64,000 nt of DNA from Branchiostoma lanceolatum (Eukaryota > Chordata > Leptocardii > Amphioxiformes > Branchiostomatidae): the NCBI RefSeq assembly GCF_035083965.1, contig NC_089724.1, forward strand, positions 10,410,910-10,474,909, read 5' to 3'. Within the stretch, counting starts at the first letter, position 1; each line of letters begins with the position of its first letter. A program made the translations under genes and the position numbers. Under the pieces are notes generated by a model that was not told the origin of the DNA, searched no databases, and saw only the letters and a list, made by a program, of their open reading frames with translations. This document shows positions 1,370 through 64,000 of the stretch, in pieces.

Positions 1370-1467
1370 CGCGCCGGCCGGAAGGTGCGACATTGTATTT
1401 TATTTCACGGGAATCGACCGGGAACTGGAGATATTTTAGCCCTCGGAATCTCGACAGGTCCACAACC
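1370..1467 (+). promoter_or_regulatory. Probable core promoter / 5' UTR of the importin gene
   Basis: A GC-rich patch directly upstream of the start codon contains an ETS-type CCGGAAG motif at 1378-1384. A GCGCA half site of the NRF1 kind lies at about 1346-1350. No TATA box is evident. Such elements are usual in housekeeping promoters, but the assignment is inference from motifs and position. Confidence 0.3.
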
Positions 1468-24967: not shown

Positions 24968-27900
24968 CCAGGTTCCATGAAAATGGGCCTGTCTATAATG
25001 GAGATGCTAATGCTTCTCATGTTCGGACTGCTGACTGTTAACGCTACTGGTAAGTAAAATTCTGCACATGTTTTCATACATTTAAGGCCCATCGCTTCAC
25101 AAAAGTACAAAAATATGTTTGACAACATTCTTACTTGTCAAACGTCACTAAGTGTGTTGTAAACTACTATCGTCGCCACTAGGTTCCAATTAGATATCAA
25201 TTCCTGAGAAAGTCAGTGCATCTTTCAATGTCACATTGCCGGAAGATACAAGGATTAAGCATACTTACCGATCGCGAAAAGATAGCTAGTGACGCACATA
25301 CAGTCGTTTTGGATGGTTAGGTACGTATGGGTTAGACCGATTCAATGGAAATATTCTAATACATATGGCAAATGGTATGCGAGGGGCTGGAATCCTGCAC
25401 AATGATAAAATACACGTAATATTACAATTACAGACAGCATTGGCCTGGTACGTACATATGTCCGTGTTAAGGCAAAATACAATGAATGTACTCGTATAAA
25501 TGACAGCTGTCACGAAAAATAATCAACTTAGGTGGCGCCCCTTAAGCCCCTCTGAGGTCACTCAAAGATAATCACCGACAATTACCAAATTGCCATCGCC
25601 TGATAGTATAATTGTAACGCTTTTTCATCTATCAATTTATTCATCAAAGTACCGAAGGATATTGTAAAGACCATTTGATAGTTTCAGAAATATTGTAACA
25701 TGGCAAATTATTGGCAGGTATGATATGATAATATATGTATATACATATATGTATCTATGAACCTTGGAAGGGTGGAACTTAGCAATTTGCCGACTAGGGG
25801 CTACCTGAATAAAAAATGATAACGTTAAACACACCTCGAAGTCTAACACAACATAACAGCTGGGCTTTATCAAAAGGAAAGTTCGCTTGTTTTGTCAACT
25901 TAACATCCCCCCTTTAATCGATGAAATAGGAAAAAACTACACTCATTTTTCTCTTGGGGGGAAACCACATATCTACAGTCCTGTCCCTCTTATTTTCCAT
26001 GCACGTCGTTACTAATAGATACAGACGAATGTGCCGACCTGACGCACAACTGTCACAGCAACGCCACCTGCAACAACACGGACGGATCCTTTAACTGCAG
26101 TTGTAACCTGGGTTTCCATGGAAACGGCACGTACTGTTCAGGTGCAAACAATTGTCTTCCATCCCTTTAGCTTATAATAAGTCTGACCATATTCTTTGAT
26201 TTAAATAAAGATGATAGATAACACATCTATAGTGCAGTTAAGTATAGCCCCCGTATTTATGTATGACCTTTACAGACATGTTGTCATGAATATAAAATCA
26301 TTTATAGTAAAACACAGCTCAAGTGTCATCTTTTGCTAAAAGAAAGGCAAATTACTTTTAAGCGTCTTTTCTGTCAATAGTAACCTATACCCACTGCGCA
26401 CTTCTTGGATCATCCATATGAGTTATGGGGTCCACGCCGAAGTCGCGCCACAGATCCTGACCAGTCACGTTACTTTAACATGTTATCATAGATGGTGGGT
26501 GGGTGGGGAAAACAGTTCGCGCCGTCTCCAAAATTACGTCTTCATTTTTCCTCCCCTTCCCATTCCCCTATCCTTTGGATCAGTCTCCGTCACGCTCCCT
26601 CGGTAAGTGTCGGATGAATCCGCTGAAGTGACAGTGGGTAGTCTGTCTCTCCTGTACTTATAAGGTATGTTCAGGTGAACTCATTAGTCTGATCCAATCA
26701 GTTTGCAGTGGGAATAGTAACCTATACCCACTGCGCACTTCTTGGATCATCCATATGAGTTATGGGGTCCACGCCTTCGTCGCGCCCCATGCTCCTCCCT
26801 TGTCCCTATATTATATCAACATTATATCTGACATCCTTCATGGATCACCATGTACATTTATCAAGTACGTCTTCTATCATGCTGTCATTCTCCAATATCC
26901 GCCAGCACGATAATTTGGGGATTCATTATGACACAACCGTTCCTTTTACTTATCCTCCCCTCTCTCATCTTCTCCCCTCTCTTATCTTCTCCCCTCTCTC
27001 ATCTTCTCCCCTCTCTCATCTTCTCCCCTCTCTCATCTTCTCCCCTCTCTCATCTTCTCCCCTCTCTCATCTTCTCCCCACTCTCATCCCACTCTCATCC
27101 CACTCTCATCCCACTCTCATCCCATTCTCATCCCATTCTCATCCCTGTTCTTATCCCCTTCCTTAACCCTTTCTTCCCCAATGTTCCCATTCTCATCCCG
27201 TGTCTACTCTGAACAAAGCATAGCACAGTAGCCTCTACCAGTCTCCGCGGCACGGTCGCTGGGAAAATAGTAGAAATCGGCCAAATAGAGTCAATTGTAT
27301 GAAGAGAGTCGGCTACGGAGAGAGGGTCCCATATTGAACTATGCCTGCGAATGTTACCCTCCATGGTCAAAATCCCCCGGCAAGTGTTCTCCCAATAGCC
27401 GGCGTAGTTAGTCTGGTAGAGACTGATAGCACAGCTGGAAAACTTAATACATTGAATGTTATATCCCTTACCGTCCTATAGACCTATTCACACACTTGAC
27501 CTTACACTTTTCAGATGCATTACAACGTTTCCCCATAGATGAAGTCGATGACCCAGCGATAAAACCAATCCACCACCCTGCAGCAGCATTTACATTTCCG
27601 CATGTGGCTTCTCCAATGTTGGGCGTTTTCCAGTCTTAAACCACTGGGTTCCTTGCCCAGGGCAACTCGTAAAAGGAGTGTTCCTCCTGTGAGATTCCCA
27701 GCAGTAGTGAGGGGTGAATTGGCCCCCATAACCACATTAATTCATAAAAGGATTACATCGTCTGCCAGCCTAGAACAATGGCAAGGACAGATTACCATTA
27801 TAACTGTCAGAGAATTCAAAATTTTTCAGTACTGGTTTTGCTAGGAACATTATCAAACCATGCAGAATGACTTAGATCTCCCTCAAAAAGTCACATAATC

Positions 27901-30900
27901 CAAGGAAGTTTCAATCAAATAAGATCCTTTGGATAATCAAGACACTACTATCTACAACTTTCAGTTTTTGGGGTAGTCAACCTTGTTCAATTTTCAAACT
28001 TTTAAATCAACCCTGTCAACGTTGTGTTAGAGTAACTACTAGTAAATGGATCTAAATTTCCAATGTCTTCCCCACATTAGCCTTGGTGTGTCTAGAAATA
28101 TGACTTTTGCTTTTTGGGGAGTTCTTCGTCTACTTGTTGGAGTAACCAGGAATTAGACTGGAGCTCTGTAGAACAGTACATATACTGCTAGCCAATGTCT
28201 CAAACTAAATCGTAAGCCAGTGTTGTTATTCCTTTATTTCTTGGCTGACTGTTCTTCAAGCTAACTTCTTTATGTGTAGCCATACTTCAATTTCTTATCT
28301 GTTGTCTGTAGATTTCAAACATGACTTGACGAGTAACTTGTACATGGCAAACTGTCTCAGCCAGGCCTCCACTTATGTGAACTGTACGGCTGCCAGACGC
28401 ATACTGAAGCCCAAAGTGTACATTATCCTGTATTTATATAGTTTTACTGGGGTCTTTAAAAGCAGATTACAAAACTAACAGACAAACAAAACAAAACACA
28501 CACCAACAAATGTATTTATTATCATTTATTTGTTTCGGGCACTCACTGGCCCATAGTTAACCCTATATGTACATGAACACAATCTTAGTACCTACAACAA
28601 ACCCAAAATGACTACTATATATACGTTTCCCGATGTCTTGAGGTTTGTCTCTGTATCTATCTATATAACCGGTATACCCATAAGTTAACTACAACTGTGA
28701 CAACATGCAGTCTGTGATGACGCCATTACACGTTAAAAAAACTAAGCTTAGAAAGCTGCCGCCCAGCAGAAAAGGAAAACCAGAAAGGAACGGGTAGTCA
28801 ACCTCACGAAGAGCACGTCTCTGATCCAATGTGAACACTGTGGCCAGAGGTTCAGGACCAGAATAGAACTTTACAACTACAAGAGGACTCATGCGACACA
28901 TATACCACAGCCAACCGATGGATGGCAGCGGTCCTCGTCACAAGTGACGAACGAACCACCAGGTTTATCAAGATCGGTTTCTGAATCGGGAAAAAACGTC
29001 ACCTGTCACCGACTGAACTGAACACAACGACGTGCTCCTGAATGGAAGACACCCAGATGTTGCTGATGTGTTTTAGCAGGAGAATACCCACACTGCCGCC
29101 GCCGTCTCTAGGGGTGAACCTATGCCACCAGTCATATCACCAAAGGCCTCGGCCTTCCTCACCGATAACACACTCATGATCCCAAGCATGACCATGTAAG
29201 TCTATGACATCTAAGATATCGTGCATTACCTCCGTCTACTGATCCAGCAGGGCATAAATGTTGATAACAGTCTCAGGTGTACATGTTCCTTATTCTTTCG
29301 ACCCTGTCCTCTAATAACGTAGAACGTGGCCAACTACTACAAATGCCTGCCTCGTATGTTTTCAGGTTTATCTTCCATCGTATAACATGGCCAAATACTA
29401 AGTGGGCACGTGACATACATTTGAATAACCATATGTACAATGCCTTACATGTCACCACGCTTTTCTACATCTAGCGTATGCCCTGGCCGAAAATAAATAC
29501 ATAAATGTACATGCCTCATATATACTCACGTTCATCTCCACCTCACATAGTACCTGGCCGACTCAAACACCACGTGAACATACTCACATACCTACACGTT
29601 CATCTACAATGTACGCCTCACATAGAACTTGGCTGAATCAAATCACGTGACCATGCTTCACATGTCGCACAATTCATCTACGTCTCGCAAGAACGTGTCC
29701 AAATACCACGTGGACCTGCCTCTGATTCCACAACGTTTGTCTTCGCCTCACGTTGAACGTGACCAACTCAAAAGACCACGTGACCCTACCTTGAACGTCG
29801 CCAGATTCACCTACGTCTCGCATAAATAAAACGTGGCCGATTACTACGTGACCATGCCTTGTCTGCCGCATGATATATCTACATGTATACCTCGGATAGA
29901 ACATGGCCGAAAACCACGTGAACCGTGTCTTACCTGTTTCCAACTTTATTAATACCACCTGTAGAACGTGACCGGATACCACGTAGTCCTGCACCGCATA
30001 AAACATTTGTTTTGCCTAATACCCTGTTCATCTGTGACTCACATTGAACATGGCCGAATACCACGTAGACATGCTTCGCATGTCACCGAGTTCATCTAAC
30101 GAATGAATGAATGAATGAACTTTATTGCTCGACAATTGCACATAACACAATGTATGCAAAAGCAATCAATACAATAAGTACTCAACTATTCTGAAAACGA
30201 TAACTCCAAGAATATGAACGTAGATGGCGTACTAATATAATATACGTCAAACATTTCTATCTGCTACAATACATTCTCTTTTTTGTAAAGCGCTATGTCT
30301 CATCTAGAACGTGGCCGAATACCACGTAGGCATATCGCACATATACCGTGTCCGAATACCACGTAGGCATATCTCCCATAGAACGTGGCCGAATACCACA
30401 TAGACATGTCTCACCTAGAACGTGGCCGAATACCACGTCGACATGTCTCACCTAGAACGTGGCCGAATACCACATAGACATGTCTCACCCAGAACGTGGC
30501 CGAATACCACGTAGGCAAGTCTCACCTAGAACGTGGCCGAATACCACGTAGGCAAGCCTCACATAGAACGTGGCCGAATACCACGTAGGCAAGCCTCACA
30601 TAGAACGTGGCCGAATACCACGTAAGCATGCCTCACATAGAACGTGGCCGAATACCACGTAGGCATGTCTCACATAAAAACGTGGCCGAATACCACGTAA
30701 GCATGTCTCACAAGAACGTGGCCGAATACCACGTAGGCATGCCTCACATAAAACGTGGCCGAATACCACGTGTACAAGCCGCGCATGTCGCCAAGTTTCT
30801 CTGCGCCTCACAACGTGGCCGAATACCACAATACACGCCTCAGAAATTTCACGAATGCTCATCGATTACAACACATGACCGAAAACACACTTTATATCAA

Positions 30901-33900
30901 TAACTCGTAAACGAATCTACATACTATATTCCACAAACGGCAAACAGACGTCAACACGTCAATTTTTGTTTTTCTTTTAAATAATATGAACATTAAAATA
31001 CTTGATACAAAAACGACCAACCGAACAGTGTAGTCCATGTACTTCTCACGTTCACCGTGGCCGAATACCACGACAACAAGCCTCACAAATTTCACGAATG
31101 CTTATCGTACATTAAAATGACCGCAAACACAATTTACATCAATACCTCGTCAACGAATCTACATACTATATTCCGCACGAGCAAACAAAAATCCACACGG
31201 TAATGCAATATAAACGACAAAATAGTCCACAACGACAAACCGTACACCTGTGTAGTTCATCTACTCCTCACATAAAACGTGGCCGAATACCACAACAACA
31301 TGACTCACAAATTTCATGAATGCTTATCGTACATTAGAATGACCGCAAACACAGTTTACATCAATACCACGTCCGCAAATCTATATACTATATTCCGCAC
31401 GAGCAACAGAAATCCACATGGAAATGCAATATGAACAACAGAATATTCAAAAAAGACAAACCACACATCTGTCACTGTTCCCGGGCCATCAGCAATGGCG
31501 GGCGGCACTGGCAGTGAGTTGCGACTCCGGGTCCAGCCGAGGTTATGCCTGCTGGTTCTGTGGATGTCACGACGCTGTCCATCACTTCTGTCCTCCTTGC
31601 TCCAGCCGACAAACTGATAGTTGTCTCACCATACTAGGACAGAAAATGCGTCAAATTAACGTGATGGTAATTCTCGAGCTTCTCTTCAAACTCTAGGACT
31701 TCCACACCAGAGTCCAACTCACATACCATGCCGGCAGAACAACCCGAGATCATGATAGCGAGCCTTTCCCCAGGCCAAAGCCAAACTTAAAACCTAATTA
31801 CACAAAGTGCGCGTGGCTGTTGTCACACCTTTATGACAAATCAACAGTCACAAAAAACGTCAAAATGACAAATCGCAAAATTCCAAATTTCACCACTTAA
31901 AGCACTATAAAAGCAACCTTCCAACCATCACCCTGTACCGAAGTCTAATCTCTCCCTGGCGAGAGAAATGTCCTCTCACAGACGCCCGCGGTGCACCGGA
32001 AGAAACCACCGAAGTGTTCTGCTGTTCCCCACACCAGTTAGCGCTGTCACTCGGCACCTGGTGTGTCCGCTGCACGTGCATCACCTATTGTACTGTTCTC
32101 CAGCAAATTAGCGTCATCACCCAGCACCTGGTCTGCCGTCGCGCCCAAATTCCTTGGCTGCACGCCTCCCTGCCGTGGTCCAAATACCTGCAGTCTACTA
32201 TTGAAGGTACAAATATATAAGCACTGTTATTAGCTGCAGCTTCCCAAGTACTCGACCAAAGCCGTGGCCGACCACCAAGTCGGTAGACAACCATCAGTCA
32301 CTACAGAAAGCCGCCCCCCAAACTAGCTCACTAGGAATAAAACATGTGCCCCTTGCGTCCACACAAGGTATACAAATACAAATCACCCCGCTACTGACAT
32401 CCTGTCACCAAAACGCTAAACATCGTCCGAAAAAAGCATGAAAATCTTAGTCCAACCTTCAACTTTCCCCTTTCACAAAGGAGCAACCGAAAGAAAAAGA
32501 GCTTCGTCAAAGTCCAGTCTTTCTACATCAAGCTCTCCTAAGCGAGGGATCCAAGTCTCGCACCTCCGGTTGTGTTGGATGAATCCGCTGAAGTGACAGT
32601 GGGTAGTCTGTCTCTCCTGTACTTATAAGGTATGTTCAGGTGAACTCATTAGTCTGATCCAATCAGTTTGCAGTGGGAATAGCTATACCTTTTCGTAAGT
32701 AAAGTCCACAAACGCTTTGTGTGAGGGTAGCAATAACATTTTTTTTATAAATTCCATGTCTGTAGACATTGACGAGTGCCTGAACAGCACCTGGAATGAC
32801 TGTCACGTGAAAGCCACGTGCCTGAACACTCAGGGGTCGTTTCGCTGTAGCTGTGAGAACGGTTACCATGGCAACGGGACGTTCTGTCAAGATTATAAAA
32901 AATATTCTTTTCTCTGAATTGTAAAATCTATTCATGTAAAATCTATACATGTTAATCGTTGACAGTAAATTTGATACATAACATATCAAAATATGATTCG
33001 ATTATGATACAGATACAGATGAATGTGTCGACTTGACGCACAACTGTCACAGCAACGCCACCTGCAACAACATGGACGGATCCTTTAACTGCAGTTGTAA
33101 CCTGGGTTTCCATGGAGACGGCACGTACTGTTCAGGTGCAAACAATTGTCTTCCATCCCTTTAGCTTATAATTAGTCTGACCATATTCTTTGATTTAAAT
33201 AAAGATGATAGATAACACATCTATAGTGCAATTAAGTATAGCCCCCGTATTTATGTATGACCTTTACAGTCATGTTGTCATGAATATAAAATCATTTATC
33301 AGTAAAAACACAGCTCAAGTGTCATCTTTTGCTAAAAGAAAGGCAAATTACTTTTAAGCGTCTTTTCTGTCAATAGCTGTACCTTTTCGTAAGTAAAGTC
33401 CACAAACGCTTTGTGTGAGGGTAGCAATAACATTTTTTTTTTTAAATTCCATGTCTGTAGACATTGACGAGTGCCTGAACAGCACCTGGAATGACTGTCA
33501 CGTGAAAGCCACGTGCCTGAACACTCAGGGGTCGTTTCACTGTAGCTGTGAGAACGGTTACCATGGCAACGGGACGTTCTGTCAAGGTTATAAAAATATT
33601 ATTTTCTCTGAATTGTAAAATCTATTCATGTAAAATCTATACATGTTAATCGTTGACAGTAAATGTGATACATAACATATCAAAATACGATTCGATTATG
33701 ATACAGATACAGATGAATGTGTCGACCTGACACACAACTGTCACAGCAACGCCACCTGCAACAACACGGACGGGTCCTTTAACTGCAGTTGTAACCTGGG
33801 TTTCCATGGAAACGGCACGTACTGTTCAGGTGCAAACAATTGTCTTCCATCCCTTTAGCTTATAATAAGTCTGACCATATTCTTTGATTTAAATAAAGAT

Positions 33901-42847: not shown

Positions 42848-42896
<49 letters not shown>

Positions 42897-50582: not shown

Positions 50583-50652
<70 letters not shown>

Positions 50653-53600
50653 ACACAACCAAACACACAAACACAGACACAACCACAGACACACCCAAAT
50701 CAATATCTCTATTTTTCATGTAGAGAATTACAGACTCAGATAAAGGTTTATCTTAATCTATATACAGTATAAGACAATGTAATTATTGCTCGATATCATT
50801 TGAACCCATAGCGACATGCATATCAACTTCAGGTTGCTAATATATGTCTATCAAATTCTCAAACAAACAAGAAAATTCATTTCAGAAATTCTTGCATATT
50901 GCTTGGAATTTCAATCATCTTTTTGCCCATACAAGAGATTCTATACACTCAGGTACATGATTGAATTCTGTGTACCCAATTACAACTCTATTTTCCACTG
51001 ACTTGATACCTTATAGTGATGGGAAAGCAGGCAGGACCAACATGTGAAGTGAACATGACGGGACAGGACGGGAAGTTTTCCCATATGCAAAGATCTGAGA
51101 TGAGTAGAGACCACTGTCAGTGGAACATTGAGGTAGTTCTAAATGTTTATCCATATAGATGATATAGTATACGTTTAAACTTTTAGCATGATAATGTACA
51201 GTATATTTTGTATGTTTTGGATATAAGGCAATAAAATATTAACCTAACCAATAAGGAAGCTTACTTTTTCTTCAAGTGATGATACCTACTGGGGAGTTTC
51301 AATGATTTAATGAGCATGAGCATGATTGCTAGCAACGCCATCTCTATGCACATCATCCACATCAACCATAATGTTGTACACTGGTGTATTCTCTCTGTCT
51401 CTAATAGGTATTTGAGGGTCATCACGTAAATTTGCATTTCAACACGTTTGAACTGAGTCCCGGCGAGTCCGGGTTCTGCCAAGGAGGCCGGGTACACGTC
51501 ATGGATGGTTCCTGGCCCGCCGGCAAGTCTGACATCATTGGTAAGTGTCCAGAAAACACTGTTTTATATTCTAGCAGACTAAGAAACTGCACTGAAAAAT
51601 GGGCCTCAATTAAGAATGCGTAAAGCTTGGTCCCATTGTTCAGAATTAATATTCTGACTCATACAATCATCCCTCAATCCCATAAATAGCGTGAAAAGAA
51701 ATTATTTTTTCCGAATTTATTGATAAAGGTATGATTTTACAATTGGGAGTTGAGTTGAATGGTGGCCAGATATGGATACATGCCATTATTGATTATATAG
51801 GTACTTGTTGCTGTGACGTCACTGTTGTATTCTTGTTCACTTCAGGCACATACTGCGGCCACGACATGCCCGACATCACGTCCAGGAGCCGGCGGCTGAC
51901 CGTGGTTTTCGAGGGGGCGATGCGGAATACATCCGACACATTTGATGCTGTTTATACTGCAGAGAACACAGGTCTCATCCAAGCTTCGTTATTAGTACCA
52001 TTCGCGTATCAATATTTTTGTTGAATCCTATACTAAGACTCTAAATTTTAGTCATGGTACCCCAACGACCCAGAAAGAGGTCAATGATTAACACCAGAAA
52101 TCTTCAAAGTTTGTAAAGCTCAGTATCTCAAATAAAGCAGGAATGGCCTTTGGTTACCTGTACTATTCAGAAACAGCTACAATACTCAGCTCCACCTCTA
52201 AGGAAAGGAGTCAGGATCTTGTCTAAATACTGATAGAGATGCAAAATCATAATAATTCAGACTTTTAAGAACTTTGAAGGTTTGTCATTCTTTCCAGTAT
52301 GTTGATGCTGATACTTCTGAGAATGCATTTCATTGACAACTTGACGTTTTATTTGTAGAGTCTACTGAGTGTAACGCATCCCATTTCGTGTGCGATAATG
52401 GGCACACCTGTGTTCCATTTGACCAACTGTGCAACGGTGATGTCCAATGCTGGGATGGCAAGGATGCTGAAGTTTGCGGTCAGTACATACACTACCTATC
52501 ATTTTTCATAGCTGAGATACATATCATTTATCATTCATTTATCTAGCATTACTGTTTGTGCTGTGTGCGATTGTATAGGAAACAGAGTAGAGTATTGTTA
52601 GCTTCCTTCATACAGGTATGATGTCCATCTTCTGTGTTTCAAATAATTCCACGGCCAGCCAAGGTATTGCTAAGTTGATACATATGCCATAGTTTACTTA
52701 AAGCCCCTATATCACTGGACCCGCGACACGTTGGCGACTTCGCTTACGACCAAGCGACTTGACAGCGCGCTCAACGAATTTCATCGATAAAAAGCAATTT
52801 TTTTACGATTAGTGTGTTTTGTTGTCTTTTGTTGACTTTTACGTTTTGCATGATATTCCCATTATAAAGTCAAGGGCAACACAAATCCAATTTAGGACGC
52901 AGCGAGGTCGCCAATGCAACGCGTCGAGGGTCCAGTTAGATAGGGGCTTTAGTTTTTGGATCGGATGCCATGTTTGTTGTCTTTGTTCAGGTTGCCAGGC
53001 AGTCCCTAACAGCATTAAGGAGATGTGCCCTACCTCTGCATACGCCACCTTCCCAAACTACCACAGTCACCTGAACTTCGACGCTATTCTCCAATGGAGA
53101 AAGTACGACACGGCCAGGACACTTTCACAGAAACGATGTCATGAGCAGGTGCTGCCAGTTAGCTTCCACATGACTCTCGTTCACATCTTTTCAGTCTAGC
53201 AAAGGACTAACCATACTATACTGGAGATAGATATTTCAGTGTAGAGAACAACAGTATCTCAATCAGTACCGGGGTAGGCGTTACTTAAAATCCACAATCA
53301 CTAATCCAGCGGCGATACATACTTTTTCAAAGCTTTATTCACTAAATACATAAACATAAATCAAATAGAGAGTCTATACAATACTACATGTGAGGAAAGG
53401 TTAAAAATGTTATAGAAATGTAAATGTAACAAAAACTTCTAAGGGATAATTGTCGCGTAGTCAATAAATTGGCATATTTCATTTTTTTTAAAGTATTGAA
53501 AATTGGTTTTGATTTCTTGTACAAAACAGGCATAAATAACGTATTTGTATATGCGACGAGGATACAAAGTAGTAGATCATGTTCTCCACATACAGCCTTT

Positions 53601-56600
53601 GTACAGCCTGTGTGCCGTCGTCTTGTTTAATGCACATGGTGCTTCCTGCTTATCTTTAAAAAAATCCTTTTAAAAACATATTTCCTTTTCTGTTTTTTAA
53701 TGGTAGATTGGTGAGTTTTTGTGCTACATGGTTGTCAGCCCATGTTCGGGAAGCAAGTATGCCCCCTGCCGGTCGTGGTGCGAGGAACTGAAGCTAAACT
53801 GTGCTCATGAGCCTGAGTGGACAGCCGTCCTCCCAGAATGTTCAGCGTTTGCTTCCCAGTACTGTTATCCCGGGCCTATATCACAAGGTCAGCAGCATCT
53901 AAACAATGACATTGACGCGCTTTGATTTAGCATAGCTGTTTAGTTTCTTTGTTTCTGCCATACATGTAAGATTGAGTTTAATCGCGCTTCTAACCCAGGC
54001 TATGTACATATTGAATGCAGATATTGTGATAAGATTGCAAGGCGACGATTGTTTATGTTTGACCCTACAAAACCGTAAATGCAGAAATGTTCGCGGTGGT
54101 TTTATGTTCGTGGTTCAGCGCGAACTTAAAACCACCGTGAAACTTTTTTTTTGCACACCTATGACTGAAGCGCTACTATTGTTTCAAACGCGAACTATAA
54201 AAAAAAACGTGAACAATCCATTTTCTCCCTACCGCGAAATGAAAACCACGCGAACTTAATTGCATTTACAGTAACCCATAGCATGATGTATATTACCTAT
54301 CATTACCATCAGGTTGCTACCGAGGAAAAGGACTCAACTATAGAGGAACTGTGAGCGTGACAGTCACGGGACGCCCCTGCCTTCAGTGGAACACGCGAGC
54401 GTATGAGGTTGAGGCCTACAAATGGGCCAACCTGGAGGAGAACTACTGCCGCAACCCTGACGAAGCCGAGAGGCCCTGGTGTAATGTACAGACTACGGGC
54501 AACTGGGAGTATTGTGATATCCCTCCTTGTGACAGTAAGATCACTGCATACGTTAGATGTTAATAGTGGAGGACAAAGTGTGTGTTTTTCAATGCATCGT
54601 CTTTCTTTGTATTTCAAAATGATTTCAAGTAAGGGTCCAGATTTGTCGACTGAAAATTAAGGAAAAAGGGCGAAGAGAAGGACCATCCTCAAATTTTTCA
54701 ATGTGTGTACGTGTGAATGTATGAAAGTTTTGAATGCGTGTGTGTGAGTGTGTGTGTGTGTGAATGTGCTGTTGTGTACGGTTCGAAGCAAACAAGGACG
54801 ATCTTGCTATCTTACTAAATCGAAGTTGTAACCGATTATTGACCTTGAAGGCATCATGAAGTACATTTGGTCGTCAGTCGATTCGAACTTTCCTTTAAGT
54901 TATTGTTCCTTTCCTAACAGTCAGACCCTTAGCTATACAATCGTAACATGTTCTATCGGCGATCTTTTATCCGTAGACAAAGTCTGTAAGGATCGTGGTG
55001 TCCACCGACGCGCGCTTCGTGAGCCTGTCCGGACCTTCTACTGGCCGGGGGAGAAGGTGACGTACAGCTGTGAGGGAGGGTACACCCTTCGCGGGGCTCC
55101 GGAGATCGAGTGCAACCACCAGGCTGAATGGGAACTGGACTTACCCACCTGCACAGGTAAGCTTAAACTGACATTTTAGCTTGGAAGTTCATCTGTGTTA
55201 GTAGAAATCATTCTGAAACACGTTTTAACTGTAATTTCCAATACAAAAATTGGACTTACCCAATTTTTCGACTGTACAACACCAGTCTTTGTCAAGAAAT
55301 CACTCTTAGACAAAGACTGGTGTTGTACAGTCGAAAATTTGGGTAAGTCCAATTTTTGTGTTGGAAATTACAGTTAAAACTTGTTTCAGAATATTAAACT
55401 GACATTTGTTTTATCTCACTGACTTTTTTTAAGTGTCTTCATATCATATTTTAACATCTTTCATTTATACGAGTTCGTGGTATTGGCTATTCAGGTGTAT
55501 TGGAGATTCATCTATGTTTTTACCTAACTGTGCGTTTTAGAGGATCCCAGGACAAAGCTGTTGGTTGACAAGTTTGAAAAGGGCTCCATAAGTCCGAACC
55601 TGCCCCCTCCAGGAGGGAACGGCCTAAATATCACCGTGGCTGCCAGCATCGACGACATCATTAATCTAGTGAGTTTTATGGGAGTTCAGTCAATGGGAGT
55701 TTTTTTTTTCGTGACTGGATGCCAGTAACACTTCAAAAGATACCTACTGCCGTAGATCCTCTTCCATTTACCATGATTTTTGGTGTTTGCGATCGTTTTC
55801 AGTTTTGTACCCTCTCACCAATATATCTGCACACATTAACAATTTAACTTAGATATATAAACAATAAAGTTGATGTGGATTAAATTCTATTGCACTGTAA
55901 CTAATTGTATATTTTAACAGGATGAGCCAGGCGAGTCCATCACAACAGCAACCCGCATAGATCTGGTAAGGGCAGTCATAAATTCACCTATATTGGCTGT
56001 AACCACTTGTATGCAATCATTGAGCATTGAACATTGTTTGACAAAATTGCTATTGATATGCAACAAAAGGCAGCAACATATTTGTGATTTTCACTTGAAA
56101 GTTCATCTGTGTTGGTAGAAGTCATTCTGAATGGAGTTTAAACTGTAAATGCCAACACAATATATTGAACTTACCCAAATTTTCGACTGATCAGCTACAG
56201 TCTTTGTCAAGGAGTGAACAATCCACTGCTTCTGTGACGTCACGTTATGCAGATGAGACACGTGACTCGGTGAGCAGTGAATTTTATTGTGTTGCCATTT
56301 ACAGTTTAAGCTCCATTCAGAATATTTGTGATTTTTTACAGTGTAATTTGGCGTATTTCATGTGTACTTAATATCGTAAAATACCAGAGGAAATAATTTC
56401 AATCAACCTGTTTTCGTCAGGCATTAGTTAGTCAAGTAGTCCATCCATATTGCTGAAAATACTTGATCTTTTCATATATTTCATTGACTACTAGTATTTC
56501 TGCTACTTGTTTCATTATTTCATTCATTTGTTTTATGAGCAGAAATGGTATGACATCAGACTGAAATGGGTAAACACCCTGTACGATCTCACAAAAGTTT

Positions 56601-59600
56601 TTGTGGAACATGACAAAATCTGGACACCAAAAATTAAGCTTCGCGGAAGGTAACTTGTATCCAACCTGTCATACCTACTAGATTTACACAATGGAAGGCA
56701 TCATTGCATGCTAGCATGCTGATCAAATACGTAGCCACCCCTTCAGTAACGTACTTTGTCTTGTTCTACTTACGACACGCATGTGCGCTTGTTATTTTGT
56801 TGACATTTTGTTATAAATATTAAGCTTTCTCAATGACAATGAATCATTCTAATTGCGATGTATCAATTGGAGTATGTATGACAACATAATCACAACGCTT
56901 CAAAAATGGATGGCGTGAAGAACTGAAGCTTTTAAGGATACATGTATGGTAAATGCAGATTCCGCGTGGCAGTATCTAACCAGTAACACATACATGTATA
57001 CACCTTTCAGCGCCGATCAGCAATTTCTTGGGTTCCCTGAGGACGACCTTGAGATGTCTCACACCGGCGAGGTGACCTGGACCATAGGTATCAAGTATTA
57101 AACACAAACTAGTCTTACCACCTCTGACCTGTACATCCTGTACTTCTTGTTCTTCCTGCCACTCAGACAAGTTTGATCTTTGTGGTCATCTTCCCACTCA
57201 CTTCCGTACCTTGCCAGACTCTATTAACAACTCAGCCGGGAACAAACCTCTACTCAGGCCATCGGAAACAAAATCGGGCACACACCAAGACAAACAAATA
57301 AACAAACAAACGTACAAAGAAAGAAACCAAAAACATACACCCCATACATTGATTCAGCAAATTTGGAACGTTTCGAATTTTCAACTCTCGCTGATAAGGA
57401 CAATATCTAAATGGTCTCGTTAACGATTAAGATAAGCCCTTATCTAATGCATTCCATTGAAAAGTAAATAATATAGCTGGGAGCTGGGATACGTGCCGAA
57501 AACGTGATCTCTTACACTGACAAGCCGCTTTAGCCGCTTTACCTGCTCATCTTTCTTGTACCAAACAGCAGACTTACGCCCACAGATATGTACAGTAATG
57601 CAGAAAAACGTTATCATTATCACACACCATAGAAACCATCCTCGTCACGACCTGTATCCTGGACCACTTCCTGTTCCCGTTCGACAACATGACGTGTCAC
57701 GTGTGCATCAGGGGTGACTTCCGGTCCAACGAGGTCTTCGTCTGCGCTGAGATGGACGACATCGGCGATGACGTCATCACGTGCCATCAGCATAGACGCC
57801 TCAAACGTGGAGAGTGGGACGTCGTCTACAGCTTACGTGTCGACAACAATTCGGTATGAGTACCTCTTACTTTACTTAGATGGACCAACCACAGCACTGT
57901 GCTGAGGTACAGGAAACCGTAAAGATGTGATGTCGCCTTCAGAAAAGGCGGCAGAGGAGAGAAAAGTCTGTAGTCAGGAAAATTGATGTATCCAGGGGCC
58001 CCTCTTTAGTAGGACTGGAGTGAAGTGTAATAAATCAAGATGACGAAAAGAAAAGTTACTCTTGGCTAGCACATGTATCCTTACTCACTGTCTGAAAGAG
58101 ATCAGTAAACAAAAGCGTGTGGATAAATCATGGAATGCATCGCTACGAAGGCACCGATTGCAAGGTGTTTACCTACAGCCAGTATCAACATCAATGCTTT
58201 TTGCTCTAGGCATGCGTGGAACTCCAGCTCCAGAGGAACTCCCTGTACCACATGTGCACCACGGTGTCCCCGTCCATCGTCCTGGTGGTGCTGATGGGAA
58301 TCATGTTCTGCGTGCCCATCGACAAGGGGGACCGGCTGTCCTACGGCATGAGCATCCTGCTGTCCATGTTCGTGTCCCTGGTGGTCATCAACGACTTCCT
58401 GCCGAGAAGCGCCACCTTCCCGTTGCTGGGTAATTTGTCAAACTTGATAACTGTTTTTTTTCTCAACTTAATGATTACATAGGTGTGCGTGATTAACTTA
58501 GCTAGATTTATCTCCAAGCAGAAGGGTTTCTGACCAGCTTTCTATTTTTTTCTGACATTCCTCTTCATTAGGTTACAGAACTGTCAGAAAACTGAACAAT
58601 TCTCCACCCCTCAAACATCTTAGTTGCAACATCTGCTTGGAGATTAAGATGGATGGGTACATCTAGGATACATACATACCGACAGTAAAAGATAATATAG
58701 GTATTGACACGGCTTCCTATCCAGGCATTTTGACCATCACGGCCATCATCCTGATGGGAGTGTTCATGTTGGCCACTGCCGTGGTCATCTCGCTGTCCGG
58801 TCGGGAGGGGAAGCTGCCGCCCTGGGCCAGGACGGTGTTCCTGAAGTACTGTGCCATGGCCTTGCTTCTGGGGGATCTCAGCAAGAAGTGCAGGTCAGCT
58901 ACTCTCAAAACATTGAATTTCATGACCAAGTGCGAAAACGTACTTTTAGATTTAATTCACTTTAATTGTACCTTGTATCTGTCTCCTTGGAAGAAATAGT
59001 TAAAGAGTCTGGGAAAAAAAGGCTGGCTCCTTAGAAATTTCAAACGACGTCGTTAATGGTTCTCTTAACTTGAACGTTGATTTCTGGATGTTGTATACTC
59101 CAATGAAGTTCATTATTCATCCACTTTCCCAATCAACCATCATCTATTTTTGAAAAAAGATATGAGACGTAGTAAGAACTAAGATGTTACGTATGCTCCT
59201 CTACATATCTGCTGTCACTTTCTGCCAACCAGGAGGCAGGAGGAACCTCCTACACTCAACAACATCGCTCCCACCATCGCCTCACCTACAGAACGGATGC
59301 CGTCCTTTACTGTAGACAGGTTCAACCTAGAGGAGGAACCGCGCAGGCGCATGAACCTGATGAAGATCTTGGTGAGCATCAACACCGTGATGTGGCGGAT
59401 CCAGAACACCCTGGCGGCCACCCAGAGCACCCTGCACAAGCTGAACACGTGGCTGGGTAAGAGTGAGGAGGGGGACAGCAGTGATCGTGAGGAGGAAAGC
59501 GAGTGGATGCTGCTGTCGCGCGTGCTGGACAGGCTGTGTTTTGTGCTGTACTTTAGCTGCATGTTCCTGACTCTTCCTGTAGCTCTGTATTCGCGTCCTA

Positions 59601-59605
59601 ACTAG
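24968..59605 (+). CDS. Giant mosaic receptor: EGF/lectin/CRD/kringle ectodomain fused to a Cys-loop ion channel
   Basis: The start ATG is at 24977 and the stop TAG at 59603-59605. An AG at 24966-24967 suggests that the first coding exon follows a 5' UTR intron. Fifteen intact EGF exons plus all later exons sum to 6789 nt, or 2262 residues, and every junction keeps phase. Approximate residue map: signal 1-24; EGF 25-645; lectin 646-770; WSC-like 771-869; MAM 870-1033; Frizzled CRD 1034-1165; lectin 1166-1306; kringle 1307-1404; CUB 1405-1529; LDLa 1530-1569; CRD 1570-1682; kringle 1683-1756; sushi 1757-1816; channel 1817-2262. Module borders are all phase 1, the class favoured by exon shuffling. 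No known gene with this order comes to mind. The main alternative is two adjacent genes, but no promoter-like gap, signal peptide or stop separates sushi and channel. Individual exons are listed below. Confidence 0.78.
24977..25049 (+). CDS. Mosaic gene, exon 1: signal peptide
   Basis: The exon encodes about 24 residues beginning [11 protein letters not shown] and running through a hydrophobic Leu/Met/Phe core to VNAT, where signal peptidase could cut. The donor is GTAAGT and the exon ends in phase 1, which fits the EGF exon at 26019. Two in-frame Met codons (first and third) could serve as start. The first was chosen because it follows the acceptor-like AG most closely and gives a charged n-region. 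Confidence 0.8.
26019..26141 (+). CDS. Mosaic gene, EGF exon A1 (calcium-binding EGF)
   Basis: A single-exon calcium-binding EGF domain starts [12 protein letters not shown]. It has six cysteines and the Asp/Asn hydroxylation pattern C-x-N-x4-F-x-C-x-C. It contains NAT and NGT glycosylation sequons. Both ends are phase 1. It is separated from the rest of the array by a large transposon-filled intron. Confidence 0.88.
26390..26712. mobile_element. 323-bp MITE with ~38-bp terminal inverted repeats
   Basis: The left end reads CCCACTGCGCACTTCTTGG. The inverse of the right end reads CCCACTGCAAACTGATTGG. The similarity continues through GATCA and ATGAGTT for about 38 bases. AATAG stands before the left flank (26376-26380) and after the right end (26713-26717). 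It shares both ends with the much larger element that follows, so it looks like an internally deleted relative. The superfamily is not recognised. Confidence 0.7.
26955..27150. repeat. CT-rich minisatellites
   Basis: About nine copies of a CTCATCTTCTCCCCTCT 17-mer are followed by repeated TCATCCCACTC and TCATCCCATTC units. The low-complexity Ser/Pro/Leu open frames across it are artefacts of the repeat. Confidence 0.95.
28780..29020 (+). mobile_element. 3' end of a non-LTR retrotransposon ORF, decayed
   Basis: Around 28826-28905 the + strand reads [10 protein letters not shown] then [16 protein letters not shown]. This is a C-x2-C-x12-H-type finger with an internal RIxLxxxxRTH pattern, as found at the C-terminus of several LINE reverse transcriptase ORFs. 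Residues resembling [10 protein letters not shown] follow. No reverse transcriptase core is visible upstream, so this is a 5'-truncated fragment. Confidence 0.5.
29290..31310. repeat. Palindromic minisatellite: ACGTGG-N7-CCACGT units
   Basis: From about 30300 to 30780 a unit of about 37 bp recurs some 13 times. Its core is AACGTGGCCGAATACCACGT, a perfect 6-bp inverted repeat around CCGAATA. From about 29290 to 30080 and at the right edge, older diverged units of roughly 55-75 bp contain the same core plus CATGTCGCCAAGTTCATCTACG-like words. Isolated copies lie near 31055 and 31275. Pieces flanking the right-hand copies (CACAAATTTCACGAATGCTCATCG-like) are also duplicated. Confidence 0.9.
30097..30290 (-). 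mobile_element. LINE 3' tail inserted in the minisatellite
   Basis: On the minus strand this ends in GAGCAATAAAGTTCATTC followed by further CATT units. That is the same kind of tail as at 24285-24306 but in opposite orientation. It interrupts the old minisatellite units. Confidence 0.55.
32766..32891 (+). CDS. Mosaic gene, EGF exon B1 with mutated splice donor
   Basis: A calcium-binding EGF of the second type (starts [13 protein letters not shown], six cysteines) has a normal acceptor. Its exon border reads CAAG followed by ATTATA, whereas sister exons read CAAG then GTTATA. A G-to-A change has therefore removed the GT donor. Because the exon is symmetrical (126 nt, phase 1-1), skipping it would leave the protein in frame with one EGF fewer. 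Confidence 0.6.
33013..34281 (+). CDS. Mosaic gene, EGF exons A2, B2, A3, B3
   Basis: Exons are A2 33013-33135, B2 33461-33586, A3 33707-33829 and B3 34156-34281. Type A is 123 nt and starts [12 protein letters not shown]. Type B is 126 nt and starts [13 protein letters not shown]. Each has six cysteines, the cbEGF calcium signature and several N-x-T/S sequons. A2 has Met and Gly-Asp where A3 has Thr and Gly-Asn, so two A subtypes alternate. Introns are nearly identical between units (A-to-B about 325 bp, B-to-A about 120 bp), which shows recent duplication or gene conversion. B donors are the weak GTTATA. Confidence 0.85.
34402..35218 (+). CDS. Mosaic gene, EGF exons A4, B4, A5
   Basis: Exons are A4 34402-34524, B4 34849-34974 and A5 35096-35218, all phase 1-1. 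A4 repeats the A2 subtype and A5 the A3 subtype, with His for Tyr in NGTHCSG. The intron after A5 differs from the earlier A introns (it begins GTAGAACATTG) and is shared with the one after A7. Confidence 0.85.
35398..35496 (+). pseudogene. Broken EGF exon B5
   Basis: Only the part from [10 protein letters not shown] onward remains. The acceptor, the calcium-binding DIDEC start and the first cysteine are replaced by intron sequence (TTGTCATTTATATAAA joined to TGGAATGACTGCC). The donor has become CAAG then GCTATA. An upstream AG at 35374 would put the remnant out of frame. I expect it to be skipped. Confidence 0.8.
35618..36435 (+). CDS. Mosaic gene, EGF exons A6, B6, A7
   Basis: Exons are A6 35618-35740, B6 36066-36191 and A7 36313-36435. 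This block is a second copy of A4-B4-A5 at an offset of about 1216 bp, including introns and the following broken B exon. B6 has Ser for Asn near its start (ECLSSTW), which loses one sequon position but makes another Ser/Thr context. All phases match. Confidence 0.85.
36599..36698 (+). pseudogene. Broken EGF exon B7
   Basis: It carries the same 5' truncation as B5 (identical junction of intron to TGGAATGACTGCC), so both descend from one deletion that was then duplicated. Here the donor is intact and strong (CAAG, GTAATG). Without an in-frame acceptor the exon is still probably unused. Confidence 0.8.
36810..37659 (+). CDS. Mosaic gene, EGF exons A8, B8, A9
   Basis: Exons are A8 36810-36932, B8 37302-37427 and A9 37537-37659, all phase 1-1. 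These are the most diverged members, for example HGSATCHNT in A8, [10 protein letters not shown] in B8 and [11 protein letters not shown] in A9. Their introns are dissimilar to the homogenised block, so they look like the old edge of the array. The B8 donor is a good GTAATG. Confidence 0.87.
38041..39063 (+). CDS. Mosaic gene, first C-type lectin domain (3 exons)
   Basis: Exons are 38041-38213, 38578-38672 and 38957-39063. The fold signature is clear: [13 protein letters not shown] start, [24 protein letters not shown], then a C-terminal [11 protein letters not shown]. Six cysteines indicate the long form. The EPN/QPD and WND sugar/calcium motifs are absent, so classical calcium-dependent sugar binding is doubtful. 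Phases run 1-0, 0-2, 2-1. Confidence 0.87.
39419..39715 (+). CDS. Mosaic gene, WSC-like Cys-rich module
   Basis: A single 297-nt exon, phase 1-1, encodes a module starting [12 protein letters not shown]. It includes [20 protein letters not shown] and [11 protein letters not shown]. The LGCW start and spaced cysteines resemble WSC-like modules that occur in many invertebrate mosaic proteins. Family assignment is by pattern only. Confidence 0.65.
39868..43059 (+). CDS. Mosaic gene, MAM domain (3 exons)
   Basis: Exons are 39868-40014, 41536-41795 and 42975-43059. The MAM pattern is present: [12 protein letters not shown] with [10 protein letters not shown], then [36 protein letters not shown] and the end [17 protein letters not shown] domains mediate adhesion and oligomerisation. 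The first intron holds a Tc1-like relic, the second a long repeat with an (AC)n tract. Confidence 0.88.
40023..41278 (-). mobile_element. Tc1/mariner-like DNA transposon, inactive
   Basis: Terminal inverted repeats AACTACGCACAAAAAGTTTG and the inverse at 41254-41278 are flanked by TA on both sides. On the minus strand pieces of a Tc1 transposase are readable (VWRNVMFT, then [34 protein letters not shown]). Stops and frameshifts are present and the first DDE Asp segment is altered, so it is dead. It sits six bases after the donor of the first MAM exon. Confidence 0.88.
42036..42930. repeat. Dispersed AT-rich repeat, copy 1, with (AC)n
   Basis: It starts AGAGTTCCTCGACCCCATACC and carries many TTATGCAAAT/ATTTGCATAAT words. 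It ends with an (AC)n run (42849-42893) and CTTCTCGGCGAAGGTAAT. Related copies fill the kringle intron at 45846-46490 and 48290-49497. Confidence 0.75.
43313..43875 (+). CDS. Mosaic gene, first Frizzled-type cysteine-rich domain (2 exons)
   Basis: Exons are 43313-43535 and 43703-43875, split in phase 2. Ten cysteines follow the Frizzled CRD order: C-H-E near the start, [53 protein letters not shown], and a final [11 protein letters not shown]. In Frizzled proteins this fold binds Wnt lipids; here the ligand is unknown. Confidence 0.85.
44141..44913 (+). CDS. Mosaic gene, second C-type lectin domain (2 exons)
   Basis: Exons are 44141-44333 and 44684-44913, split in phase 2. Visible features are the start [20 protein letters not shown], then [28 protein letters not shown], and a C-terminal [10 protein letters not shown]. 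Four cysteines indicate the short form. The EPN and WND sugar-binding triads are not present. Exon division differs from the first lectin domain, so the two were probably acquired separately. Confidence 0.85.
44945..45472. repeat. Foldback element with ~250-bp inverted arms
   Basis: The left arm begins CTCCAGTTTAATTCCGGAC and the right arm ends in its inverse. Matching internal landmarks are GACCTCCCATATCTCAGCAACC, AATATTGTAAAC, CCCTGGGG and repeated CTGCAGATTTCTG words. The arms meet near 45220, so the whole could form one long hairpin. It lies in the intron between the second lectin and the kringle. Confidence 0.85.
45651..50207 (+). CDS. Mosaic gene, first kringle domain (2 exons, 4.3-kb intron)
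   Basis: Exons are 45651-45745 and 50009-50207, joined in phase 0. The kringle pattern with six cysteines is clear: [50 protein letters not shown]. The typical PWCF becomes PLCF. The domain is cut in half by an intron packed with repeats. Confidence 0.83.
45846..46490. repeat. Left arm of a large inverted repeat in the kringle intron
   Basis: Its sequence (start AGAGTTCTACGACCTCATACC, then GTATTAGGAGTGTTTCTCG and many TTATGCAAAT words) recurs in reverse orientation at about 48780-49497. It belongs to the same dispersed family as 42036-42930. Confidence 0.8.
46514..48152. mobile_element. 1.6-kb element with terminal inverted repeats
   Basis: The left end TACTCTCACCTCTCAAATA is the exact inverse of the right end TATTTGAGAGGTGAGAGTA. 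Beyond this both ends continue with GGTACxTTTAT-like words that repeat several times internally. No transposase frame is seen. It lies between the arms of the larger inverted repeat. Confidence 0.75.
48290..49925. repeat. Right arm of the large inverted repeat plus a second inverted pair
   Basis: From 48780 to 49497 this is the inverse of 45846-46490. Within it, about 155 bp at 48307-48475 (ATGCTCGTCTGTGTGTCTG onward) recur inverted at 49745-49900, nearly base for base. The outermost words are ACCTTCGTCGACGAAG and CTTCTTGACGAAGGTAAT, a family hallmark. Confidence 0.8.
50570..50649. repeat. (CA)n microsatellite
   Basis: About 35 CA units with one interruption lie in the intron between kringle 1 and CUB. 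Open frames made only of Thr/His or Val/Cys across it are artefacts. Confidence 0.97.
51017..51971 (+). CDS. Mosaic gene, CUB domain (3 exons)
   Basis: Exons are 51017-51132, 51408-51540 and 51846-51971. Four cysteines follow the CUB pattern: [68 protein letters not shown], ending with [12 protein letters not shown] domains often bind proteins through acidic calcium sites. Phases are 1-0, 0-1, 1-1. Confidence 0.86.
52359..52478 (+). CDS. Mosaic gene, LDL-receptor class A domain
   Basis: One exon, phase 1-1, encodes six cysteines: [16 protein letters not shown], then [16 protein letters not shown]. The acidic CxDGxDAE stretch corresponds to the calcium cage of LDLa modules. Confidence 0.87.
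52991..53887 (+). CDS. Mosaic gene, second Frizzled-type cysteine-rich domain (2 exons)
   Basis: Exons are 52991-53148 and 53707-53887, joined in phase 0. Ten cysteines are in CRD order, with [39 protein letters not shown] and a final YCYPG. The intron phase differs from that of the first CRD (phase 2), so the two are not simple recent duplicates. Confidence 0.85.
54071..54273. mobile_element. GTTCGCGG MITE, copy 1
   Basis: The ends CCGTAAATGCA and TGCATTTACAGTA are inverted relative to each other. The body carries GTTCGCGGTGGTTTTATG and its inverse CGCGAACTTAAAACCACCG. Two more copies lie at 59631-59847 and 61633-61690. Confidence 0.75.
54313..54534 (+). CDS. Mosaic gene, second kringle domain
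   Basis: A complete kringle in one exon, phase 1-1, has six cysteines: [51 protein letters not shown]. The DEAERPWC stretch is close to the canonical kringle. Unlike kringle 1 it has no internal intron. Confidence 0.92.
54977..55156 (+). CDS. Mosaic gene, sushi/CCP domain
   Basis: One exon, phase 1-1, encodes a four-cysteine CCP module: [43 protein letters not shown]. It directly precedes the channel part. Its donor (GTAAGC at 55157) and the next acceptor (AG at 55539-55540) are both phase 1, which joins sushi and channel without a stop. Confidence 0.9.
55210..55392. repeat. Near-perfect palindrome, 84-bp arms
   Basis: The left arm 55210-55293 and right arm 55309-55392 are nearly exact inverses around a 15-base centre. 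Words such as GACTGTACAACACCAGTC, AATTGGACTTACCC and ATTCTGAAAC are matched. It is related to the element at 56097-56330 and sits inside the short intron that joins sushi to channel. Confidence 0.9.
55541..57853 (+). CDS. Mosaic gene, Cys-loop channel ligand-binding domain (5 exons)
   Basis: Exons are 55541-55668, 55921-55965, 56543-56649, 57011-57087 and 57633-57853. The nicotinic-type beta-sandwich is recognisable: [10 protein letters not shown] helix, [20 protein letters not shown], then [11 protein letters not shown] with the loop D Trp. Further on are [10 protein letters not shown], the AD pair, HTGEVTWTI, and the Cys-loop [15 protein letters not shown] with 13 residues between cysteines. 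The loop B Trp (GSW-like), the loop A Tyr and the vicinal Cys pair of loop C are missing, so acetylcholine binding is unlikely. There is no signal peptide of its own. Confidence 0.88.
56097..56330. mobile_element. MITE related to the palindrome at 55210
   Basis: Inverted ends (TCATTCTGAATGGAGTTTAA and the inverse CTCCATTCAGAAT) enclose GACTGATCAGCTACAGTC and GTGAACAATCCACTGC. It lies in the second channel intron. The palindrome at 55210-55392 shares GTCTTTGTCAAG and ACTTACCCAA words. Confidence 0.75.
58210..59605 (+). CDS. Mosaic gene, Cys-loop channel membrane domain (3 exons)
   Basis: Exons are 58210-58429, 58725-58893 and 59233-59605. TM1 ([15 protein letters not shown]) is followed directly by [20 protein letters not shown] (TM2), INDFLP, TM3 ([20 protein letters not shown]), a cytoplasmic loop of about 130 residues, and TM4 ([20 protein letters not shown]). 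In TM2 numbering the residue before the basic 0' Arg is Asp, 2' and 6' are Ser, 9' is the conserved Leu and 20' is Asp. The Pro-Ala insertion of anion channels is absent, so cation selectivity is inferred. The protein ends YSRPN at 59605. Confidence 0.92.

Positions 59606-60625: not shown

Positions 60626-64000
<3,375 letters not shown>

Follow-up and report, generated by a model that had tools for sequence, protein, structure and literature searches.

A Probable In-frame Fusion of a Mosaic Extracellular Arm to a Nicotinic-like Cys-loop Channel Subunit in Amphioxus

Main Result

A chain of 44 exons on the + strand, from 24977 to 59605 of the window (the whole stretch of 64,000 nucleotides that was analysed), encodes a predicted product of 2220 amino acids (6663 nt, with no stop before the last codon), which is probably the product of one fusion gene: a mosaic arm of extracellular modules would be joined in frame to a nicotinic-like channel subunit. 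A fusion of this kind had already been proposed in the first-pass annotation of this DNA, and most of the sequence evidence raised here supports it; the leftovers are weak terminal exons beyond the arm and a signal-like start at 54484, which are discussed below. The earlier statement that the exons sum to a multiple of three holds for the rebuilt chain, which is open to its final stop; the start codon used here is at 24977 and not at 24968. The modules listed previously were recovered by Pfam or by motif, two of them (WSC-like and LDL receptor class A) under the cut-off; their arrangement in groups was not recovered, since they are interleaved in the order signal peptide, 14 EGF modules, C-type lectin domain (CTLD), WSC-like, MAM, Frizzled-type cysteine-rich domain (CRD), CTLD, kringle, CUB, LDL receptor class A (LDLa), Frizzled-type CRD, kringle, sushi and channel. 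Instead of roughly 1800 extra residues, an arm of 1774 residues including the signal peptide was measured, i.e., an extracellular surplus of about 1,750 residues beyond the signal peptide, ahead of the channel (446 residues, 1775–2220).

Procedures

The chain was built by hand, exon by exon, from three-frame translations and a simple home-made splice score, of which the rank alone is meaningful. Exon ends were picked by hand with an eye on domain continuity, and therefore the unbroken frame is partly built in; the completion of every module in the chain is not built in by this choice. The input for Pfam consisted of the signal peptide with three EGF modules and of all residues from the first CTLD to the C-terminus, 11 EGF modules being left out. 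Signal-like starts were scanned over 24901–59605, with exons of 31–160 bp and the reverse complement as control.

Gene Model and Modules of the Arm

The positions of the features are given in Table 1. All 43 introns of the modelled chain are of the GT-AG type, and most arm modules have phase 1 at both ends, as expected for shuffled extracellular exons. By the home-made score, weak donors were those of CUB3 (−4.1), CH4 (−1.6) and 13 of the 14 EGF exons (−0.8 to 0.7), and weak acceptors, at about −1, those of KR1b and several EGF exons; the sites of FZ2a were left unscored. Hydrophobic segments of the 2220-residue product are the signal peptide, M1–M4 and one segment within the fold of the first CRD; the arm is without a hydrophobic membrane anchor of its own.

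Table 1. Features of the modelled chain and its surroundings; bit scores are from Pfam.
Feature	Position	Strand	Remarks
Exon 1, signal peptide (24 residues)	24977–25049	+	ends in phase 1
EGF exon 1	26019–26141	+	phase 1-1; followed by an intron of 6.9 kb
EGF-coding copy without GT donor, outside the model	32766–32891	+	end set by analogy with 126-bp copies
Array of 13 further spliceable EGF exons and two partial copies	33013–37659	+	phase 1-1
CTLD1, 3 exons	38041–38213, 38578–38672, 38957–39063	+	Lectin_C, 42.6 bits
WSC-like, one exon	39419–39715	+	15.8 bits, under the cut-off of 27.8
MAM, 3 exons	39868–40014, 41536–41795, 42975–43059	+	128.3 bits
Frizzled-type CRD 1, 2 exons	43313–43535, 43703–43875	+	Pfam Fz
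CTLD2, 2 exons	44141–44333, 44684–44913	+	Lectin_C, 32.6 bits
Kringle 1, 2 exons	45651–45745, 50009–50207	+	intron of 4.3 kb between; Pfam Kringle
CUB, 3 exons	51017–51132, 51408–51540, 51846–51971	+	50.6 bits
LDL receptor class A, one exon	52359–52478	+	23.5 bits, just under the cut-off of 24.1
Frizzled-type CRD 2, 2 exons	52991–53148, 53707–53887	+	Pfam Fz
Kringle 2, one exon	54313–54534	+	phase 1-1; Pfam Kringle
Sushi, one exon	54977–55156	+	phase 1-1; strong GTAAGC donor; Sushi, 27.8 bits
Junction intron, 384 bp	55157–55540	+	sushi to CH1; palindromic repeat at 55210–55392
Channel ligand-binding domain, CH1–CH5	55541–55668, 55921–55965, 56543–56649, 57011–57087, 57633–57853	+	Cys-loop in CH5
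Channel M1–M4, CH6–CH8	58210–58429, 58725–58893, 59233–59605	+	stop at 59605

Above their Pfam cut-offs were, in the arm, EGF_CA, Lectin_C (twice), MAM, Fz (59.0, in two stretches), Kringle (86.2, in two stretches), CUB and Sushi. In the long loop of C-type lectins, calcium-dependent sugar binding involves WND together with EPN or QPD. None of the sugar-binding motifs looked for was found in CTLD1, and CTLD2 has EPD and EPS only, both ahead of the WVWADG core and not after it. The glycan- or microbe-gated conductance suggested in the first-pass annotation finds no support in these domains, and glycan gating through the CTLDs was rejected, there being no motif in the usual place. Among solved structures in the PDB, the CRDs scored highest with the secreted Wnt inhibitor sizzled, with no MuSK or ROR chain listed; kringle 2 scored highest with plasminogen, with ROR1 lower (best 60 of 122 matches), and the CUB-LDLa stretch with enteropeptidase. 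As far as solved structures go, an origin of the CRD-kringle pair from ROR or MuSK was rejected, since sizzled and plasminogen were the best matches there.

Fourteen calcium-type EGF modules are present in the model by motif count, of which three were also run through Pfam, where EGF_CA was above its cut-off. The previously reported number of 15 repeats is correct for intact EGF-coding exons, but the copy from about 32765 is without a GT donor and only 14 are spliceable as modelled; two further copies, near 35400 and 36570, are truncated at their beginning. Copies located between about 32.7 and 36.5 kb mostly share 93–97% identity along stretches as long as about 2000 bases, introns included; identity falls to 78–83% in the last copies, from 36.6 and 37.3 kb. 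The array appears to be young, and its length may differ among individuals. It extends over 32678–37678, and the first EGF unit (26017–26391) is 96–98% identical to four array copies despite the intron of 6.9 kb between them.

Several other stretches of the region were recorded. The 6.9 kb intron contains an open stretch with a weak C2H2-like motif at 28752–29021 (zf-C2H2_4, 19.6 bits, under the cut-off), perhaps a retrotransposon remnant, and minisatellite-like tandem copies at 30295–30829; the intron between CTLD2 and kringle 1 contains a long imperfect palindrome (44939–45478; 83% over 557 aligned columns). Coding-like stretches in introns of the chain are found at 31461–31625 (−), 31954–32193 (+) and 40416–40529 (−). 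Both recognised neighbour genes, of importin type and of zinc-dehydrogenase type, are outside the chain. Upstream, on the + strand, an importin-beta N-terminal domain was above the Pfam cut-off at 3995–4150 (E 2e-9) and an Xpo1 match just under it at 4704–4868; coding-like + stretches are found over 1408–19239, and two of the four pieces sent to Pfam gave no match. Downstream, on the − strand, a zinc-binding dehydrogenase was recognised at 62185–62337 (ADH_zinc_N, E 2.4e-8); the coding-like − stretches there (60632–63025) are convergent with the end of the channel, and two of three pieces sent to Pfam were without a match.

The Channel Part

A complete subunit with four transmembrane segments had been claimed before, and its ligand-binding domain, Cys-loop and M1–M4 were all recovered. 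Pfam reported Neur_chan_LBD with 82.3 bits (cut-off 26), covering model positions 22–145 of 216 only, and Neur_chan_memb with 59.5 bits (cut-off 28.1), with hydrophobic segments at M1–M4; NCBIfam LIC reached 132.5 bits, under its cut-off of 280.2. The Cys-loop is formed by the cysteines at residues 1901 and 1915, as C-x13-C around FPFD. The top match in the PDB was the muscle acetylcholine receptor alpha subunit (E 1.9e-31, 112 bits), and 5-HT3A matched more weakly (E 2.1e-25, 92 bits), both among the best 60 of 249 matches; by this closest match, the predicted channel is a nicotinic-like Cys-loop subunit. Among IMG/VR contigs, a query with the 264-residue channel core gave 10 pattern matches, none of which was a relative.

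Compared with the muscle alpha subunit, the Cys-loop, FPFD, a W-x6-W stretch (KWYDIRLKW), the M1 proline and a 13-residue M2 stretch are retained, and the pore and coupling parts of the predicted channel look sound. M2 looks cation-type, with D before R at its start. In the same alignment, the loop A tyrosine is replaced by R and nothing corresponds to the loop B tryptophan; in loop C, L-R stands in place of the vicinal cysteines, and of the tyrosines the first is kept and the last is S. Neither the vicinal cysteines nor the aromatic box of an acetylcholine-binding nicotinic alpha subunit is thus present. Because most pocket residues are changed, a canonical acetylcholine site is not expected on the predicted subunit. 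This change of the pocket had gone unmentioned in the first-pass annotation.

The Join between Arm and Channel

Between the sushi exon, which has a strong donor (score 7.2), and CH1, the acceptor of which scored 1.6, there is an intron of 384 bp, compared with a median of 356 bp for the 43 introns. Nicotinic genes have a phase-1 intron right after the signal-peptide exon, and CH1 (128 bp) starts in phase 1. CH2 has exactly 45 bp, CH3 107 bp and CH4 77 bp; in CHRNA7 the sizes are 140, 45, 110 and 80 bp, and the 45-bp exon would correspond to nicotinic exon 3. The first 12 residues of CH1 are similar to the N-terminus of mature nicotinic subunits. The attachment point of the arm appears to be the intron that follows the signal-peptide exon in nicotinic genes, a coincidence not noted in the first-pass annotation, and a join at this first intron would provide a simple origin for the chimera; the matching phase is in itself weak evidence, since a separate nicotinic gene would have phase 1 there anyway. 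All vertebrate nicotinic genes share their first three introns, according to PMC6354393.

A separate start of the channel within 55157–55540 had been named in the first-pass annotation as an observation that would count against the fusion. It was looked for, and there were no candidates for an exon of 31–160 bp from an ATG to a phase-1 donor, with donor scores down to −3. CH1 is without an in-frame ATG, and so is the open frame upstream of it, which begins only at 55528; hence the channel cannot start there unspliced. Furthermore, 183 bp of the junction intron are palindromic, which leaves about 200 bp for the end of a gene, a promoter and a start exon. This palindrome (55210–55392; 183 bp, 91.8% identical to its reverse complement), with partial copies at 56087–56217, looks like a small inverted-repeat transposon.

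The GC content at wobble positions is flat across the join, with 0.46–0.69 in CH1–CH4 and 0.50–0.70 in the non-EGF exons of the arm. A step was found inside the channel, from 0.69 in CH4 to 0.80 in CH5, followed by 0.95, 0.88 and 0.75 in CH6–CH8; the rise in CH5–CH8 (57633–59605) might stem from gene conversion with a paralogue. As an indication of two genes, a compositional change where arm and channel meet was rejected, because the shift falls between CH4 and CH5. The high values in CH5–CH8 nevertheless count against the fusion, as does the poor fit of the arm to a codon table trained on the channel (0.21 against 0.72 per codon), though with a table trained on the arm the channel fitted as well as the arm itself (0.44 against 0.45).

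Alternative Explanations

The same region could contain two genes or give alternative products, namely a secreted mosaic ending soon after the sushi module and a nicotinic-like subunit of ordinary length from a nested promoter; this appears unlikely to us, although several observations would fit it. An ordinary nicotinic gene would itself require phase 1 at the CH1 acceptor. Three acceptors in the junction intron, read in the phase of the sushi exon, lead to possible terminal exons: that at 55390 (score 0.1) gives two residues and a stop, with ATTAAA at 55393; that at 55434 (score 1.9) gives 35 residues, with the stop at 55540; and that at 55495 (score 2.2) leads to a stop at 55568. The latter two equal the CH1 acceptor in score, and the arm could therefore in principle end in this intron. 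Misprediction has also been named as a large source of apparent differences in domain architecture (PMC3927612). For the channel, the best remaining route to a product of its own is 54484–54628, a start-like stretch with phase-1 donors at 54577 and 54628 (the latter with a score of 4.1); it overlaps the coding sequence of kringle 2, in another frame. Two of the three cuts applied gave no more signal-like starts on the real strand than on its reverse complement, with 3 donors against 5 at a donor score of at least 1 and hydrophobicity 2.0, and 5 against 13 at a score of 0 and hydrophobicity 1.8; at a score of 3 and hydrophobicity 2.0 there were 2 (the true first exon and 54484–54628) against 0. 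The junction intron without an initial exon, the overlap of the 54484 start with kringle coding sequence and the strength of the sushi donor speak against two products.

Other explanations accept the continuous chain. A single precursor might be cleaved, so that the arm is shed and the mature channel keeps a stub, which we consider very improbable. Suitable sequences are present, RSRR (of the type R-x-K/R-R) at residue 1459 in the CUB module and a minimal R-x-x-R at residue 1726 in the sushi module, and for worm receptors it is stated in PMC9083331 that LEV-9 needs to be cut for proper clustering; however, both motifs are inside predicted folded domains, such motifs are expected by chance (two R-x-K/R-R and four R-x-x-R were found in all), and Pfam reported no GAIN or SEA-type domain in the parts submitted. 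That the locus is decaying, an accidental fusion under no selection which yields little or no protein, is a view to which the two truncated EGF copies, the EGF exon without a donor and the changed residues of the ligand pocket could be added; we give it hardly any weight, since the frame stays open through the 6663 nt of all 44 exons and the cysteines of the Cys-loop, FPFD and the M2 pattern are retained. The EGF exons are also symmetrical, so that the loss of one leaves the frame intact. An assembly error joining two loci would fit the many repeats and palindromes of the region, but there is no N in the 64 kb and the junction is a single intron of 384 bp, and such an error is scarcely credible.

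Proposed Origin and Function

If the fusion reading, which we prefer, is correct, an ancestral gene of nicotinic type (Cys-loop, cation-type) would have exchanged its signal-peptide exon, at the first intron with its phase 1, for a series of extracellular modules of the same phase, i.e., by class 1-1 exon shuffling. With a phase-1 intron after the nicotinic signal peptide, phase-1 modules could be spliced on while the channel remained untouched. The resulting subunit of 2220 residues would carry a rod of EGF modules, together with CTLD, MAM, CRD, kringle, CUB, LDLa and sushi modules, rising atop the ligand-binding domain. From the last sushi cysteine to the presumed first helix of the channel, which is placed by analogy, there are six residues (T-E-D-P-R-T), and with so short a spacer the arm would be expected to rest immediately above the pentamer. 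Five such arms per pentamer, as had been envisaged in the first-pass annotation, would be expected for a homopentamer only.

Acetylcholine would probably not be bound on the face that this subunit contributes. The arms could anchor or cluster the pentamer by way of ligands in the matrix or on partner cells, and they may modulate gating from above. In cis, the arm would then take on the role that CUB, sushi and CRD/kringle proteins, as separate molecules, play in trans for the acetylcholine receptors of worms and vertebrates. Given the fusion, this mechanism of tethering and clustering is offered tentatively, by analogy. A wider reading, which we hold to be doubtful, is that this would be the first pentameric ligand-gated channel of a eukaryote to carry a large mosaic at its N-terminus, with a subunit of nicotinic descent that no longer uses acetylcholine and whose gating or placement depends on the ligands of its arm; duplication in the EGF array would mean that the length of this arm is evolving quickly. 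Any novelty should lie in the ectodomain, the Cys-loop channel being a known class already.

A real fusion would break the stated absence of N-terminal domains in eukaryotic pentameric channels (PMC9897478). It would also constitute a natural chimera, with which one could ask whether binding of a ligand far above a channel opens or holds it, and would demonstrate a simple route to receptors of this kind. Since the module types of the arm recur in clustering proteins acting in trans, their fusion in cis would hint at where the ligands of the arm lie.

Comparison with Known Systems

A fusion of such an arm with a channel was not found described in a limited search of the literature, which included available parts of PMC4795631, PMC6354393, PMC2246102, PMC9897478, PMC3927612, PMC12373286 and PMC11788884. 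Domain associations of pentameric channels known at genome level only are mentioned in PMC4795631, and a fusion such as this one could be among them.

Nicotinic subunits resemble the predicted channel in the 13-residue Cys-loop with FPFD, the four transmembrane segments, M2, and apparently an exon of 45 bp in the place of exon 3; they differ in that about 1,750 extra extracellular residues are present here, the pocket is mostly changed, and there is no vicinal cysteine pair. An extra N-terminal domain adjoining the extracellular domain of the channel is also found in DeCLIC, a bacterial pentameric channel, where it is reported to influence the gating kinetics; the same source (PMC9897478, 2022) states that several prokaryotic pentameric channels possess such domains, none having been observed in any eukaryotic homologue. 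The domain of DeCLIC consists of two jelly-roll lobes and is bacterial, whereas the arm described here is a mosaic of animal modules.

With regard to the types of modules, the arm shares sushi, CUB, CRD and kringle with LEV-9/LEV-10, MuSK and ROR/CAM-1. The gathering of worm acetylcholine receptors requires the sushi protein LEV-9 and the CUB protein LEV-10 (PMC9083331), CAM-1, a receptor with a Frizzled-like CRD, is needed for the synaptic placing of other acetylcholine receptors (PMC4237178), and MuSK has a Frizzled CRD, accompanied by a kringle in fish, amphibians and birds (PMC6966886). These are separate proteins which act in trans, and the modules of the arm score best elsewhere among solved structures; because the PDB search did not place them close to the clustering proteins, the likeness is one of kind rather than of shown descent. 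The Adhesion GPCRs of amphioxus, finally, are signalling receptors whose N-termini likewise carry kringle, C-type lectin, CUB and LDLa modules, although they are seven-transmembrane proteins with a GPS domain and no ion channel; as described in PMC2246102, they show similar shuffling in another class of receptors.
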